Positions 25,244-38,796 of a stretch of 64,000 bases of DNA are shown here, one piece after another. Each line of letters begins with the position of its first letter. Positions within the stretch are counted from its first letter, which is position 1. The translations under genes and the position numbers were made by a program. Source of the DNA: Steroidobacter sp. GTDB taxonomy: Bacteria > Pseudomonadota > Gammaproteobacteria > Steroidobacterales > Steroidobacteraceae. The notes under the pieces were generated by a model. It saw only the letters and a program-made list of their open reading frames with translations, had not been told where the DNA came from and did no database searches. The stretch lies in the NCBI GenBank assembly GCA_025929585.1, contig JAICPY010000002.1:1-64000 (forward strand), in the 5' to 3' direction.

Positions 25244-25260
25244 AGTGCGGAAGTGTTTAG

Positions 25261-25346
25261 AGGGTAGGGGATAGTAGGAAAGAAGGCATTGAATGAGGGG
25301 CTGCGGGCTTTTCTTGCTACCCCTACCCCCTGATCATTACCCCCTG
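25261..25346. repeat. Paired-arm inverted element A2 (GGGTAGGGG units), overlapping the serC stop
   Basis: The left arm 25261-25287 pairs with the reverse complement of about 25306-25329, both reading GGGTAGGGG(A)TAG followed by an A/G-rich run. The right-side repeat continues through the serC stop codon (25337-25339) into its last codons, which encode Thr-Arg-Gly. It fills the 93-bp gap between serC and serA. Confidence 0.8.
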
Positions 25347-33760: not shown

Positions 33761-34501
33761 ATGCTCTCCTACTCCCCTCCTCCAAATTCGCTCCACGACC
33801 GCATCGTTCTGATTACAGGTGCTAGCGATGGCATCGGCAAGGCTGTTGCGACGGCCGCGGCGGCGCATGGGGCAACGGTGATTCTTCACGGGCGCAATGT
33901 CCGCAAGCTCGAAGGTGTTTATGACTCGATCGTGCAAGCCGGCGGCCCGCGACCTTCGATTCTGCCGCTGGATTTCGAAAAGGCTGGACCTGCCGAATAC
34001 GAACAACTCGTCGCCGCGATCGACAAAGAGTTCGGGCGTCTGGATGTGTTATTGCACAATGCAGGCATGCTCGGAGAGCGCGCTCCGATCGAGCACTATG
34101 ACGTCGCGAAATGGATGCGCACGCTCCATGTCAACGTGAACGCGCCGTTCATCCTGACACGCAGTTGCATGGCGTTGCTGAAGCGCTCGCAAGATCCCTC
34201 GATCGTATTCACATCAAGCGGTGTCGTTGCACAACCACGAGCGTTCTGGGGCGCGTATCTCGTGTCGAAGTGGGCAAGCGAAGGATTGATGCGCATGTTG
34301 GCGGACGAGCTCGAGGTCGCACCGGCGATGCGGGTGAACAGTATCAATCCAGGGAAAGTGCGCACGAACATGCGCCTGCAAGCCTATCCGGCTGAAGATC
34401 GCAGCAAGCTTGCGGCGCCGGAATCGATCGTCACGCCCTATCTCTATTTGTTCGGGCCCGATAGTCGAGGCGTCAGCGGCGAGACTTTCGATTGCCAGTA
34501 G
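33761..34501 (+). CDS. yciK: Short-chain dehydrogenase, YciK family
   Basis: NAD(P)-dependent short-chain dehydrogenase of 246 residues. The cofactor motif is TGASDGIGKAVA, followed by HNAGMLG, a catalytic serine in FTSSGVV and the YLVSK catalytic pair. The C terminus GETFDCQ resembles YciK. The physiological substrate of YciK is not established. In Pseudomonas it follows ubiG-mupP; here rmuC and a squalene-synthase-like gene lie between. Its 3' end overlaps the convergent RluB-like gene by 29 bp. Confidence 0.9.
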   Translation: MLSYSPPPNSLHDRIVLITGASDGIGKAVATAAAAHGATVILHGRNVRKLEGVYDSIVQAGGPRPSILPLDFEKAGPAEYEQLVAAIDKEFGRLDVLLHNAGMLGERAPIEHYDVAKWMRTLHVNVNAPFILTRSCMALLKRSQDPSIVFTSSGVVAQPRAFWGAYLVSKWASEGLMRMLADELEVAPAMRVNSINPGKVRTNMRLQAYPAEDRSKLAAPESIVTPYLYLFGPDSRGVSGETFDCQ

Positions 34502-35351
34502 ATCTGCGATCAGGTGCGGGGCGCTTACGCCCTGGGCCGCCGCGGCGCGCAGACCCGGGCGTACGCTGTTCGTGAACCTGCTTAGCGGTTGGCGGCTCGG
34601 CCAGGCCAGCCAGTGCGTATAGCGCGGCAACTTGCTTATCCGATAGAGCGCGAGAACGACCGCGCGGTAGATCTCTCGGGAGCTCGAGATTCGCAAACTT
34701 GACTTGCGTGACTCTGCTCACCTTCAAGCCGCGACTTTCGAATAGTGCACGAACGGCCGCGCGTCGATGTGCGCGGTGAGATGTCACGGCAAACCATCTA
34801 TTCGTGCCCTCACCTCCCGCCGGCTCCACACTTTCGAATTCAACGGCTTCATCGTCGTATTGCACGATGAGTGGAATCGAAGCCAAGTCGAAGTCGGGAT
34901 GCGGAATCAAGACGCGAGCGACATATGCTGCAGGCGTACTCTCGGCGCGGCGGCGCAACGCATCGGCAAGGCGGCCATCGCTGGTCAGGAGCAGCAAGCC
35001 GCTGTCTCCGGCTTGCATTGTATTGATCACGAGCCAGCGAGCACCTCGCACTGCCGGCAATGACTCCATCACCGACTTCGCGTCGATATCGCCCTGTGCA
35101 TCCGCAGAGCCGGCCGTGATCGGTTGTCCTTGCGCCTTGTGGTAGATCAATACCTGAGGTGCGGCCGTGATTTTCAGCCGCGATGAAACATCCCTACCGT
35201 CGATTACAACGCGGTCGCCCGCGCTATAGCGATCGCCGAGCTGAGCCGGCCGCTGATTGAGCAGCACGCGTCCCTCGGAAATCCATTTCTCGATCTCGCG
35301 CCGGGAGCCCAAGCCATGCTGCGCGAGCAGCTTGTGGAGACGTTCTGACAT
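34473..35351 (-). CDS. RluB-family pseudouridine synthase homologue lacking the catalytic aspartate
   Basis: 292 residues with an N-terminal S4 RNA-binding domain (1-60, RLHKLLAQHGLGSRREIEKW) and a pseudouridine synthase fold (about 65-225). The family motif GRLDxxTxGLLLLT is replaced by INTMQAGDSGLLLLT (109-123): Gln113 stands where the catalytic Asp should be, and the upstream KPxG reads HKAQG. DNA in this region translates cleanly, without a frameshift. The C-terminal tail (about 235-292) is Arg/Lys/Pro-rich. Location next to scpB-scpA is the canonical rluB site, which normally modifies 23S rRNA U2605. I infer an rRNA-binding protein with reduced or no synthase activity. Confidence 0.85.
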   Translation of the reverse strand: MSERLHKLLAQHGLGSRREIEKWISEGRVLLNQRPAQLGDRYSAGDRVVIDGRDVSSRLKITAAPQVLIYHKAQGQPITAGSADAQGDIDAKSVMESLPAVRGARWLVINTMQAGDSGLLLLTSDGRLADALRRRAESTPAAYVARVLIPHPDFDLASIPLIVQYDDEAVEFESVEPAGGEGTNRWFAVTSHRAHRRAAVRALFESRGLKVSRVTQVKFANLELPRDLPRGRSRALSDKQVAALYALAGLAEPPTAKQVHEQRTPGSARRGGPGRKRPAPDRRSTGNRKSRR

Positions 35352-35358
35352 TGGAGAA

Positions 35359-35451
35359 GGGGGTCGTGATCAGGGGGTAGGGGGTAGCGAAAGGAAAAGA
35401 AGCTCGGGCCAAATTTTGTTCTCTACCCCCTATCCCCTAAACACGACCCCC
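35359..35451. repeat. Paired-arm inverted element A3 (GGGGGTAG units)
   Basis: The left arm 35359-35387 and the reverse complement of 35423-35451 agree at 26 of 29 positions, each beginning GGGGGTCGTG and ending GGGGGTAG, separated by 35 nt. The right arm lies 9 nt from the scpB stop codon and the left arm 7 nt from the RluB-like start codon, so the element fills the whole gap. Confidence 0.9.
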
Positions 35452-35460
35452 TCACACTTA

Positions 35461-36270
35461 TTAATTTTCGCGCGGCGGCTCGCTTATGACGATGCGCTCG
35501 TCGGCGTCTTCTTCAGATGCCACCATTGTTGGCGACGACTCACCATCCTCATCATCTGCTTCGCTCTCGCCGTCGCCCGAGCCGTCGGCAAGCAGTTCGG
35601 ATTCGCTATCGTCGGTTCCGCCTTCAGCCTCGGTCGCTTCGCTTGACGTTTCCTCCTCGGCCTCGCTAGCGACTTCCGGAGCATCGCCGCTTGCCGCTTG
35701 AGTCGAATCGCCGCCGGGAAGCTCGAGCTGTACACCGATCGTTTCCACATCCTTCAGCTCGGCGAGCGTTGGGAGCTGATCCAAGCTTTTGAGTCCGAAG
35801 TAATCGAGGAACTCTCGAGTCGTTCCCAGCAGCTCGGGGCGGCCCGGAACCTCACGATGACCTACGATGCGGATCCAATTTCGTTCCTGCAGGGTGCGCA
35901 TGATCGTCGAACTAATCGACACACCCCGAATCTCTTCGATTTCGCTTCGAGTGATCGGCTGGCGATACGCGACCAGAGCCAGTGTTTCAAGCAAAGCTCG
36001 CGAATAGCGCGACGGCCGTTCTTGCCATAGCCGAGAGACGATGTCAGCCACGCGCGGCCGCACCTGAATGCGCCATCCACTCGCGACTTCCAGCAGTTCC
36101 ACGCCACGTTCGGCGTACTCCGCAGCGAGCAGGTCCAAGGCGGTTTTCATTTGCTCGGTGCTCGGGCGTTCGCGCTCATCGAACAGCTCCAGCAACTGCT
36201 GCATCGGCACGGGACGGCCCGCTGCAAGCAAGGTCGCTTCGATGATGTTCTTCAGCTCGTTGTCATTCAT
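35461..36270 (-). CDS. scpB: Segregation and condensation protein B
   Basis: Winged-helix partner of ScpA and SMC, 269 residues. Residues 1-165 form the two winged-helix domains (IEATLLAAGRPVPMQQLLELF, RALLETLALVAYRQPITRSEIE, IVGHREVPGRPELLGTT, DYFGLKSLDQLPTL). The rest, about 180-269, is an acidic Glu/Asp/Ser-rich tail, longer than usual and probably disordered. It lies 61 bp after scpA on the minus strand and precedes the RluB-like gene. With scpA and smc the window encodes the entire SMC-ScpAB condensin. Confidence 0.95.
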   Translation of the reverse strand: MNDNELKNIIEATLLAAGRPVPMQQLLELFDERERPSTEQMKTALDLLAAEYAERGVELLEVASGWRIQVRPRVADIVSRLWQERPSRYSRALLETLALVAYRQPITRSEIEEIRGVSISSTIMRTLQERNWIRIVGHREVPGRPELLGTTREFLDYFGLKSLDQLPTLAELKDVETIGVQLELPGGDSTQAASGDAPEVASEAEEETSSEATEAEGGTDDSESELLADGSGDGESEADDEDGESSPTMVASEEDADERIVISEPPREN

Positions 36271-36331: not shown

Positions 36332-37471
36332 TTACGGATTTGGGTTTTCGTCGGCAGGGTTTTCGGTGGCAGGTGCATCCGGCGGCGATTCAGCCGACTC
36401 GGAAGGCTCGACTGTACCCTGCTCGGTATCATGCCCAAGCGAAGCAACCGTCGTCACGTTGTCTGTCTCGACCGACTCGGACGATTCAGACTGCTCCGGC
36501 TCATCTTCATCGTCGATCACATCTTCATCCGGATGCGCCGGCTGAGCGAGCGCCGCTTCGTTCTCGGCATCGGCATCTGCAACCCCACCCTCGACCACAG
36601 TGAGGCGGCGCGCGCCAGTCGCCGTACGGACGTGAATCGGTGCGTAAGCCTCGCCTTGAACGATCTCGATCAAACCTTCCTTCATCAGCTCGAGGATGGC
36701 GATGAACGTCACCGTCACCCCCATGCGCCCTTCCTCTGGCCGGAACAATTGTGCGAAGTCGACAAACGCGGTCTCGCGCAAGCTACTCAGGATGTCCGAC
36801 ATGCGTTGACGGACCGACAAGCGTTCACGAGCCACATGATGGTGCGCGAACATTTCAGCACGCGAAAGCACGTCCTTGAACGCGACCAACATCTCCTGAA
36901 GCGTGACCTGCGGCAGCACCCTGACGACTTTCCGCTCGGCTAATTCCGCAGAAGCTGGCAGCGTGTCTCGCTCCAAACGAGTAAGCCGGTCAATGTCTTC
37001 TGCCGCTTTCTTGAAGCGTTCGTACTCTTGGAGCCTGCGCACGAGCTCGGCGCGGGGATCGTCCTCTTCCTGTCCTTCGGCTGCCGCAATCCGCGGCAGC
37101 AGCATGCGCGACTTGATCTCGGCAAGCATTGCCGCCATCAGCAGATACTCACCGGCAAGCTCGAGCTGCAGCTCAGCCATCACTTCGATGTACTTCATGT
37201 ACTGCCGCGTGATCTCCGCGATCGGGATGTCCAGGATGTCCAGGTTCTGGCGGCGGATCAGATAGAGCAGCAGATCGAGCGGCCCTTCGAACGCCTCCAA
37301 GAAAACTTGCAGCGCATCGGGTGGGATGTACAAATCCCGCGGCAGCTCGGTAACGGGCTCGCCTTCCACAACCGCAAACGGCATTTCTGCCTGCTGCGGC
37401 GGTTCCGGCAACAGCGCCTCGGATTCCAGCTGCGAACCTGTGTTCTCGACCAATTTGAGTTCGGGTTTCAT
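36332..37471 (-). CDS. scpA: Segregation and condensation protein A
   Basis: Kleisin subunit bridging the SMC heads, 379 residues. The N-terminal part has the hallmark FEGPLDLLLYLIRRQNLDILDIPIAEITRQY in overlapping form (FEGPLDLLLYLIRRQNLDI near 59-77), and the C-terminal winged helix includes VTFIAILELMKEGLIEI, about 250-270. Both ends carry extra low-complexity sequence; the acidic C-terminal tail (about 300-379) matches the acidic tail of ScpB. Gene order scpA-scpB is standard. The ATG lies 10 bp from repeat element A4. Confidence 0.95.
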   Translation of the reverse strand: MKPELKLVENTGSQLESEALLPEPPQQAEMPFAVVEGEPVTELPRDLYIPPDALQVFLEAFEGPLDLLLYLIRRQNLDILDIPIAEITRQYMKYIEVMAELQLELAGEYLLMAAMLAEIKSRMLLPRIAAAEGQEEDDPRAELVRRLQEYERFKKAAEDIDRLTRLERDTLPASAELAERKVVRVLPQVTLQEMLVAFKDVLSRAEMFAHHHVARERLSVRQRMSDILSSLRETAFVDFAQLFRPEEGRMGVTVTFIAILELMKEGLIEIVQGEAYAPIHVRTATGARRLTVVEGGVADADAENEAALAQPAHPDEDVIDDEDEPEQSESSESVETDNVTTVASLGHDTEQGTVEPSESAESPPDAPATENPADENPNP

Positions 37472-37480
37472 GTGTCGGAG

Positions 37481-37573
37481 GGAAGCGGATAGGGGATCGG
37501 CGATAGGGGATAGTCAGAGTTCACTCAGTCTTTCCCTTCTGCCATCGCCTATCCCCTATCCCCTATCGCCTTC
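37481..37573. repeat. Paired-arm inverted element A4 (GGCGATAG/GGGGATAG units)
   Basis: The left arm 37481-37512 and the reverse complement of 37542-37573 agree at about 26 of 32 positions, with a 29-nt spacer. Units are nearly identical to A1, 22 kb away, for example GGCGATAGGGGATAG. The right arm is 5 nt from the trpS stop codon and the left arm 9 nt from the scpA start. Confidence 0.88.
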
Positions 37574-37578
37574 TATGT

Positions 37579-38796
37579 TCACCTGTAGTTCATTCCCATC
37601 GCTTGGTGGACTTCTTCCAGCGTTTGTCTCGCAACGTCGCGGGCGCGGGCGCACCCATCCGCGATGATCCCGCGCACGAGGTCGCGGTTTTGCTCGAACT
37701 CTCGAGCGCGTTCACGAATCACGCTGATTTCCGCCACCACTGAATCCGCCAGCCGCTTCTTGCAATCCAAGCAGCCGATACCGGCCGTGCGGCAGCCTTG
37801 CTGCACCCACGCTTGAGTCTCAGCGTCTGAATAGATTTTGTGAAGATGCCAGACCGGGCATTTTTCCGGATCGCCAGGATCATTGCGTCGTACTCGCGCA
37901 GGATCCGTTTGCATGGTCTTGATCTTCTTAGCAACGATGTCGGGATCTTCACGCAACCCGATCGTGTTGGCGTACGACTTCGACATCTTACGACCATCGA
38001 GGCCAGGCACTTTCGGCGTCGCCGTGAGCAAGGCATCCGGCTCCACGAGAATGCTGCGCCCGGTGCCTTCTAAATAACCCAGCAGACGCTCACGATCCGC
38101 GAGCGTCAGGCGCGCGTTTCCATCCAAGATGGTGCGCGCCTTGGTCAAGGCTTCGGCATCGCCTTGTTCTTGATAAAGACGTCGCAACTCGTTGTAGCGC
38201 GTACTGTTGCGACTACCTAAGCTCTTCAGCGCCTTCTCCACCTTCAATTCGAAGTCCGGTTCCTTGCCGTAAACGTGGTTGAAGCGCCTCGCGACCTCGC
38301 GGGTGATCTCGACATGCGCGACTTGATCCTCGCCAACGGGGATCAGAGTCGGCTTGTACAACAAAATGTCTGCGCTCTGAAGCAGCGGATAGCCTAAAAA
38401 TCCGTAGGTGGCCAAATCCTTGTCGCGCAACTGATCTTGCTGATCTTTGTAGGTCGGCACTCGTTCGAGCCAACCCAGAGGCGTGATCATCGAGAGCAGC
38501 AAATGCAGCTCGGAATGCTCAGGCACTCGCGATTGAATGAATAAGGTTGCGGTCGAGGGATTGATGCCAGCGGCAAGCCAGTCGATGACCATTTCCCATA
38601 CATAGTCATTCAGCGAAGATGTGTCTTCGTAGCCTGTGGTCAGCGCGTGTATGTCGGCGACGAAGAAGTAGCATTCGTGCTGATACTGAAGCTCGATCCA
38701 ATTCTTCAGCGCCCCGTGATAGTTGCCGAGGTGCAAAGCGCCGGTCGGCCGCATGCCGGAAAGGACTCGCCCTGTGGTAGTACTCGCTGCGCTCAA
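37579..38796 (-). CDS. trpS: Tryptophanyl-tRNA synthetase
   Basis: Class I synthetase charging tRNA-Trp, 405 residues with a TTG start. The HIGH-type motif is HLGNYHG near residue 22 and the KMSKS motif is DGRKMSKSYANT (about 265). It is longer than the E. coli enzyme (334) because of an insertion of about 65 residues between the nucleotide fold and KMSKS, a form known in other proteobacteria; a CRTAGIGCLDCKK Cys cluster lies near the C terminus. No in-frame ATG exists upstream of the HIGH motif, so TTG at 38796 with a GAGGG box is the best start. It has its own promoter and a 16-bp palindrome in the leader. Confidence 0.95.
   Translation of the reverse strand: MSAASTTTGRVLSGMRPTGALHLGNYHGALKNWIELQYQHECYFFVADIHALTTGYEDTSSLNDYVWEMVIDWLAAGINPSTATLFIQSRVPEHSELHLLLSMITPLGWLERVPTYKDQQDQLRDKDLATYGFLGYPLLQSADILLYKPTLIPVGEDQVAHVEITREVARRFNHVYGKEPDFELKVEKALKSLGSRNSTRYNELRRLYQEQGDAEALTKARTILDGNARLTLADRERLLGYLEGTGRSILVEPDALLTATPKVPGLDGRKMSKSYANTIGLREDPDIVAKKIKTMQTDPARVRRNDPGDPEKCPVWHLHKIYSDAETQAWVQQGCRTAGIGCLDCKKRLADSVVAEISVIRERAREFEQNRDLVRGIIADGCARARDVARQTLEEVHQAMGMNYR

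Follow-up and report, generated by a model that had tools for sequence, protein, structure and literature searches.

The closest described relative of the protein analysed here is RluB of E. coli, for which a structure with RNA is available. As that structural account describes it, Asp110 is the nucleophile and Arg108 takes the place of the flipped base, with R108A leaving 0.6% of activity and Y140F about 3% (PMC3919597). The same source names Glu135 and Arg138 as the residues holding the A2602 bulge and Arg17 as the anchor between the loop and the S4 domain, and it reports that mutation of the corresponding Asp abolishes activity in TruA, TruB, RluA and RsuA (PMC3919597). It also gives RluB and RluF one stem-loop as substrate, E. 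coli RluF modifying U2605 too, to a small extent (PMC3919597). In E. coli, inactive RlmB(E198A) and RlmL(N309A) are reported still to stimulate 50S assembly, and the inactive pseudouridine synthase RluC(D144A) and inactive RlmN gave no assembly rescue in the experiments described there (PMC11194073). As inactive RluC failed to rescue assembly, the precedent for a catalysis-free assembly role comes from methyltransferases, not from pseudouridine synthases.

The gene described here lies in a window of 64,000 nucleotides from Steroidobacter sp. (Steroidobacteraceae; contig JAICPY010000002.1, positions 1 to 64,000), and by the window we mean this whole stretch. The gene stands downstream of trpS, scpA and scpB, and its end overlaps by 29 nt a short-chain-dehydrogenase-like gene that is the neighbour in many relatives as well (Table 1). 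An initial annotation had taken it for an RluB homologue at the canonical locus, and its linkage to scpA and scpB, syntenic with the GRLD-bearing RluBs of sister families, agrees with this. The S4 domain, the synthase fold and the scpAB-linked locus all place the protein in the RluB lineage as an orthologue. By sequence, its nearest solved relatives are E. coli RluB (9cl9_A, E 6e-41) and 4lab_A, followed by RluF. The RluB model NF007976 was its top NCBIfam match at 152.9 bits, under the cut-off of 290, and its TIGR00093 score of 48 was under the cut-off of 109.3. The S4 domain is intact, as had been claimed, with a score well over the Pfam cut-off of 22.8 bits; the synthase domain is under its own (PF00849, 21.2 bits versus 26.8).

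Alignment of the window protein to E. coli RluB (9cl9_A) places Gln113 at the position of Asp110, Thr111 at that of Arg108 and Asp116 at that of Thr113, within the stretch RGARWLVINTMQAGDSGLLLLTSDGRL of the translation. The reading of NTMQ at residues 110 to 113 in place of GRLD is thereby confirmed in the 292-aa open reading frame. Glu135 and Arg138 of the bulge loop are gone as well (Ser138 and Ala141 in the window protein), and motif III is altered. Retained are Arg17 (also Arg17 here), Tyr140 (Tyr143) and Arg197 (Arg201). The change of KPxG to KAQG, noted at the outset, is true of the window and a few relatives but is not a feature of the group: among the 14 genus members, Pro is kept in 10 and Lys in all 14.

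Table 1. Features of the window around the RluB-derived gene.
Feature	Position	Strand	Basis or remark
RluB-derived ORF	34473-35351	(-)	292 aa, ATG start; S4 domain and degenerate pseudouridine-synthase domain
S4 RNA-binding domain, residues 3-48	35208-35345	(-)	PF01479 43.9 bits; Arg17 kept
Former GRLD motif, now NTMQ, residues 110-113	35013-35024	(-)	Alignment to E. coli RluB
Asp116, shifted acidic residue (E. coli Thr113 position)	35004-35006	(-)	
Former bulge-binding loop (E. coli 131-138), now RRAESTPA	34929-34952	(-)	Glu135 to Ser138, Arg138 to Ala141
scpB, upstream neighbour, canonical rluB context	35461-36270	(-)	PF04079 183.4 bits
scpA	36332-37471	(-)	PF02616 115.5 bits
trpS	37579-38796	(-)	NF008922 689.4 bits
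Short-chain-dehydrogenase-like gene (named from translation)	33761-34501	(+)	ORF; convergent with the RluB-derived gene

Between the RluB-derived gene and scpB lies a 34-nt inverted repeat (35358-35452), 88% complementary with a 27-nt gap and of the type TAGGGGGTA/TACCCCCTA. Similar elements occur at 25258-25332 and, between trpS and scpA, at 37481-37570; the sequences look like a dispersed REP-like element.

To follow the motif loss beyond the window, homologues were first searched in 40 genomes, the window's own and 39 relatives, with a match in 39. All 13 other genomes of the genus carry a homologue at 61-75% identity without GRLD. Other genera of Steroidobacteraceae are also without GRLD and have motifs of their own, such as SPMPRIDGGLEL or QPLPPVDGGLEI. 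Sequencing or assembly error was ruled out, given the same loss in the 13 other genus genomes and in 100 more distinct family proteins, and the view that the codons could be trusted held. In other families of the order, a match was found in 14 of 15 genomes (none in G025) and all 14 read GRLD, as did 71 of the best 80 loci listed in a further scan; the absence of the loss outside the family rests on these two samples. Profile scores were dropped as a guide to such copies outside the family, as those of other-family genomes (1e-61 to 1e-79) overlapped those of the copies lacking the motif.

Site by site, we compared 114 proteins without Asp110, called degenerate copies below, with 117 that have it, counting one row per distinct aligned protein. 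The degenerate set comprises 14 proteins from the genus and 100 from elsewhere (113 from the 217 family genomes and one, L063, from a named MAG), and the Asp110 set 32 family and 85 other proteins; 12 loci with other pseudouridine synthases or fragments, and open reading frames under 130 residues, were left out. The count of Asp110 in the degenerate set, 0/114, holds by construction, the sets having been divided by this residue and most family loci picked with a profile of the degenerate copy. What does not depend on this division is the loss of Arg108 and Arg138, each absent from all 114 degenerate copies and present in 117/117 GRLD RluBs, and the acid at position 113 (110 Asp and 4 Glu among the 114, versus Thr or Ser in every GRLD copy), as well as the residues at positions 17, 74, 117 and 140 given below. 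Glu135 is variable even in GRLD RluBs (present in 82/117), and motif III (GRNREVRR) is not preserved in the degenerate copies.

The S4 residues Arg17, Arg18, Ser16, Gly13 and Lys7 are invariant throughout the degenerate copies. Arg is found at the Arg197 position in 109 of them, and position 140 is Tyr, Phe or Leu in 59, 52 and 3. Most also share Arg at 74 (93/114), Glu at 117 (93/114) and Pro at 108 (96/114), all differing from the commonest residues of GRLD RluB; the window's genus differs here, with Lys74 in 14/14 and Leu117 in 13/14. Over 20 genomes, the degenerate copy scored 36-60 bits with TIGR00093 (cut-off 109.3; sequence read in 18 of the 20), and the matches above the cut-off scored 119-179.

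Wherever the flanks were read, scpB adjoins the degenerate copy (44/44, the other 70 of the 114 having been taken without flanks), and of the 14 matching genomes from other families, 13 have it beside their GRLD RluB too. No scpB was found in the flank (some 1.5-2 kb, or as far as the contig reached) of any of the 32 distinct family GRLD copies. A cysM-like gene (named from translation) is close to the GRLD RluB in three of four inspected loci (L166, L173, L186), and tRNA-Tyr, -Gly and -Thr lie downstream of it at L166 and L167. The opposite case, a GRLD copy at scpB, was sought in the 29 family genomes without a clear degenerate copy. Eighteen of these gave no scpB match, and no GRLD copy was found at scpB in the remaining 11. 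Among those 11, the degenerate motif is readable in five (G174, G176, G127, G154 and G201, where the gene appears frameshifted in its assembly), an RluB-like piece stands by scpB in two (G014, G050), the contig edge comes right after scpB in three (G131, G081, G053), and no RluB-like open reading frame was found in the available stretch next to scpB in G087. The RluB-like frame of G050 (L298) seems to have a low-complexity Arg/Gly-rich extension of about 300 aa before the S4 domain, if there is no start further in; the locus ends inside that domain.

We then asked which other pseudouridine synthases the family encodes. The GRLD-RluB profile at E 1e-60 matched 100 of 217 family genomes, two of these matches (G156, G157) being the degenerate gene itself, which leaves 98; RluF was found in 80/217 with the window's RluF as query (E 1e-40), and G156 and G157 alone stood in both lists. 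The two enzymes occur together in none of the 217 genomes and one or the other in 178, and the 39 with neither no doubt owe part of their number to genome incompleteness. This either/or pattern follows genera and may reflect one or a few events; a Fisher test of RluF against RluB ignores shared ancestry and was given no weight in arguing for a functional link.

The window's genus has GRLD RluB in 0/14 genomes, RluF in 11/14 and a further GRLD enzyme of the RsuA family (L037) in 14/14. A second rluB, which the initial annotation had proposed to look for, was not found: a search of the window's genome (97.6% complete by the assembly's own figure) gave no GRLD RluB, and what it carries instead is an intact RluF (L038, 333 bits versus a cut-off of 318) and this further enzyme. 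The L037 type is an S4 plus GRLD enzyme of 281 aa; one example, L003 1099-1944(-), scores 146.5 bits with TIGR00093, 124 with the RluB model and 107 with that of RluF. It occurs in 30/217 family genomes, none of them with a GRLD RluB, and in genera g1 (all 14 genomes), g32, g8 and g38 only. As a general substitute for RluB the L037 type was only partly supported: it is missing from other genera that have no GRLD RluB, and these carry RluF. G013, a genome 99% complete, has the degenerate copy and an L037-type enzyme, with no RluB or RluF found. A 600-aa protein (L035, G000:C95) has a TrhO/rhodanese-like N-terminus (named from translation) followed by a synthase domain at its C-terminus (PF00849, 101.4 bits). 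Because E. coli RluF modifies U2605 slightly, RluF could cover this position where RluB is missing.

Positions in helix 93 of 23S rRNA were numbered on the E. coli sequence. The pairs named in the RluB structure report also served for this numbering (PMC3919597). U2604 and U2605 are retained in all nine family 23S sequences read, and at the pair 2588-2606 next to the target five genomes of RluF or L037-type genera have G-C and four GRLD-RluB genomes A-U. A 23S search of the window's own assembly gave no match.

Among five close genus genomes (10 pairs), the dN/dS of the degenerate gene was 0.006-0.101 with a median of 0.065, beside 0.042-0.145 and a median of 0.091 for ScpB in the same genomes. 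These ratios show strong purifying selection on the gene in the window's genus. Wider genus pairs gave a median of 0.19 and a maximum of 0.37 (60 pairs, dS <1.5). The family-wide figures were much higher (median 0.65, maximum 1.17; 1405 pairs, dS <1), probably because synonymous sites are saturated when GC-rich sequences so distant are compared, and some near pairs of genus g31 reached 0.46-0.57. The claim of strong selection is thus confined to the close genus pairs, and that for other genera to conservation and several low ratios between near pairs. Mean entropy in the S4 domain was 1.31 bits for degenerate copies versus 1.57 for GRLD copies, and in the synthase domain 1.89 versus 1.42; the GRLD set is taxonomically wider, the degenerate set being one family, and only the contrast between domains is used here.

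In a tree of 66 rows built without the motif columns, a branch supported at 98/97 set apart all 27 degenerate copies sampled, bootstrap values being not fully settled, and these divided into the window's sublineage and one of the SPMP type. Constraining the degenerate copies and the family GRLD copies together was not rejected (p-AU 0.586), the likelihood being slightly higher (5.96) under the constraint. It is possible on this tree that the relocated GRLD copy is a duplicate from the family ancestor and not an import.

AlphaFold2 models of the window protein and of a degenerate copy from the other sublineage (L105) had mean pLDDT of 90.2 and 89.1. The best solved fold match of the window model is the RluB-RNA complex 4lgt_A (Z 23.2, rmsd 2.9, 244 residues, 37% identity), and it also matches 9cl9_A (Z 19.2), by its title RluB on an assembly particle. 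The protein thus shares with E. coli RluB (4lgt, 4lab, 9cl9) its S4 plus synthase plan, its fold and the residues Arg17, Tyr140 and Arg197, and with the sister-family RluBs the scpB-adjacent locus; it differs from RluB in lacking Asp110, Arg108 and the Glu135/Arg138 loop. RluF has the same domain plan but is active, and a separate, intact RluF is encoded in the same genome. More distant matches were pseudouridine-synthase-fold chains of the Trypanosoma brucei mitoribosomal large subunit (6yxx_EC, 7aoi_XP), bound by the entry titles to LSU assembly intermediates, with a 203-residue alignment starting in the S4 domain (Z 9.7, rmsd 8.5-8.6, 14% identity to the window model).

Judging by the mutagenesis of E. 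coli RluB and of other synthases, the window protein is very probably dead as a pseudouridine synthase. If it is, the conservation of the S4 domain and the methyltransferase precedent make an rRNA-binding role in 50S assembly fairly probable. Taken as a whole, we favour, at somewhat better than even chances, the reading that an RluB-derived pseudoenzyme has been retained to bind rRNA and assist 50S assembly. A pseudoenzyme would be expected to show what is seen here, lost catalytic residues together with conservation and purifying selection. The initial suggestion of a pseudoenzyme that binds 23S rRNA fits better than the rivals considered, with Asp110 and Arg108 lost throughout the 114 copies, the S4 anchor invariant and the gene under strong purifying selection; the binding itself is predicted. 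The likeness to RlmB(E198A) and RlmL(N309A) lies in the proposed mode, an rRNA-modification protein acting without catalysis; those two were made in the laboratory from enzymes of a different class, whereas the present loss is natural, occurs across a family and affects a pseudouridine synthase.

Such a history probably ran as follows. In the family ancestor, the RluB of the scpAB locus would have lost Asp110, Arg108 and the loop for the A2602 bulge but retained its S4 domain, its fold and some basic synthase-domain residues, and a new acidic residue would have become fixed three positions past the old Asp. Pseudouridylation of helix 93 would have passed to a relocated GRLD RluB in some genera and to RluF in others, with the further RsuA-family enzyme beside RluF for helix 93 in the window's genus. 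The protein would most likely use its S4 domain and the former RNA cleft to bind the helix-93 stem-loop or nearby rRNA in the pre-50S particle, and act as an assembly or folding factor that leaves the base unmodified. Binding to helix 93 in the manner of RluB is not assured, the bulge-contacting loop being lost, and some other RNA could be what it binds.

Conservation of an acid at position 113 in all 114 copies is also what would be seen if a functional residue had been relocated. The protein might still be a pseudouridine synthase in which Asp116 replaces Asp110, assisted by Tyr143 and Arg201 and acting perhaps on a different uridine. This idea of a shifted Asp, raised in the initial annotation, gains some interest from the acidic site in every degenerate copy, with Tyr or Phe at 140 in 111/114, Arg at 197 nearly as often, and both target uridines kept in the family sequences read. 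Chemistry of the RluB kind at U2605 is made unlikely by the loss of the bulge loop and of Arg108, which is essential in RluB and RluA; motif III is not preserved either, and 178 of the 217 family genomes have RluF or GRLD RluB for the same stem-loop. In the model, the motif-II stretch is a loop ahead of a strand, and because the motif sits in a loop the three-position shift would be a real displacement. We regard continued synthase activity as distinctly unlikely. Also unlikely, in our judgement, is a new activity or ligand site in the old cleft, built from Arg or Lys at 74, the acid at 113 and, in most genera, Glu117. The residues at 74, 117 and 108 that recur in degenerate copies and are not the commonest in GRLD RluB would suit it, but the window's genus misses two of the three, and a synthase domain more variable than that of GRLD copies is unlike a new active site. 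The same low probability applies to a fuller version, in which the RluB fold was re-tooled so that an acid centre three residues on serves other rRNA chemistry or a ligand role, the relocated RluB or RluF splitting the old job.

Both the loss of active-site residues and bulge loop and the variability of the synthase domain are also what decay would leave, with the gene by scpB drifting towards loss after RluF or the other copy had taken over the activity; G087, without an RluB-like frame by scpB, and the seemingly frameshifted gene of G201 might be instances. Against this, the gene matches ScpB in its low dN/dS across the five genus genomes compared, and the S4 anchors are invariant in 114 proteins. 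Decay thus appears to be the rival least compatible with the selection data, and we hold it to be very improbable. A regulator or competitor that sits on helix 93 and times the access of RluF or GRLD RluB would gain from the stem-loop that these two enzymes are reported to share (PMC3919597), and the degenerate copy does occur in genera with either enzyme. It persists, however, in G013, where the L037 type was the only such enzyme found, and we think a competitor role improbable. The assembly-factor reading is the one we retain.

In the titles and opening parts of abstracts of the open literature, with most subscription journals outside that scope, nothing turned up that describes a naturally dead RluB, a pseudouridine-synthase pseudoenzyme or pseudouridine in Steroidobacter. 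RluB, RluF and the S4 plus synthase fold are known; what appears to be new is a natural, probable RsuA-family pseudoenzyme spread through one bacterial family. Across that family RluB and RluF also replace each other on a single stem-loop in an either/or fashion, and the case warns that annotation of rluB by position may cover a gene without activity. It is a question long open what preserves rRNA-modification enzymes, the modification itself or the grip of the protein on rRNA while the ribosome is assembled. A natural counterpart of a catalytically dead mutant, under selection as strong as that on scpB in the genus, would make this question testable in culturable bacteria.
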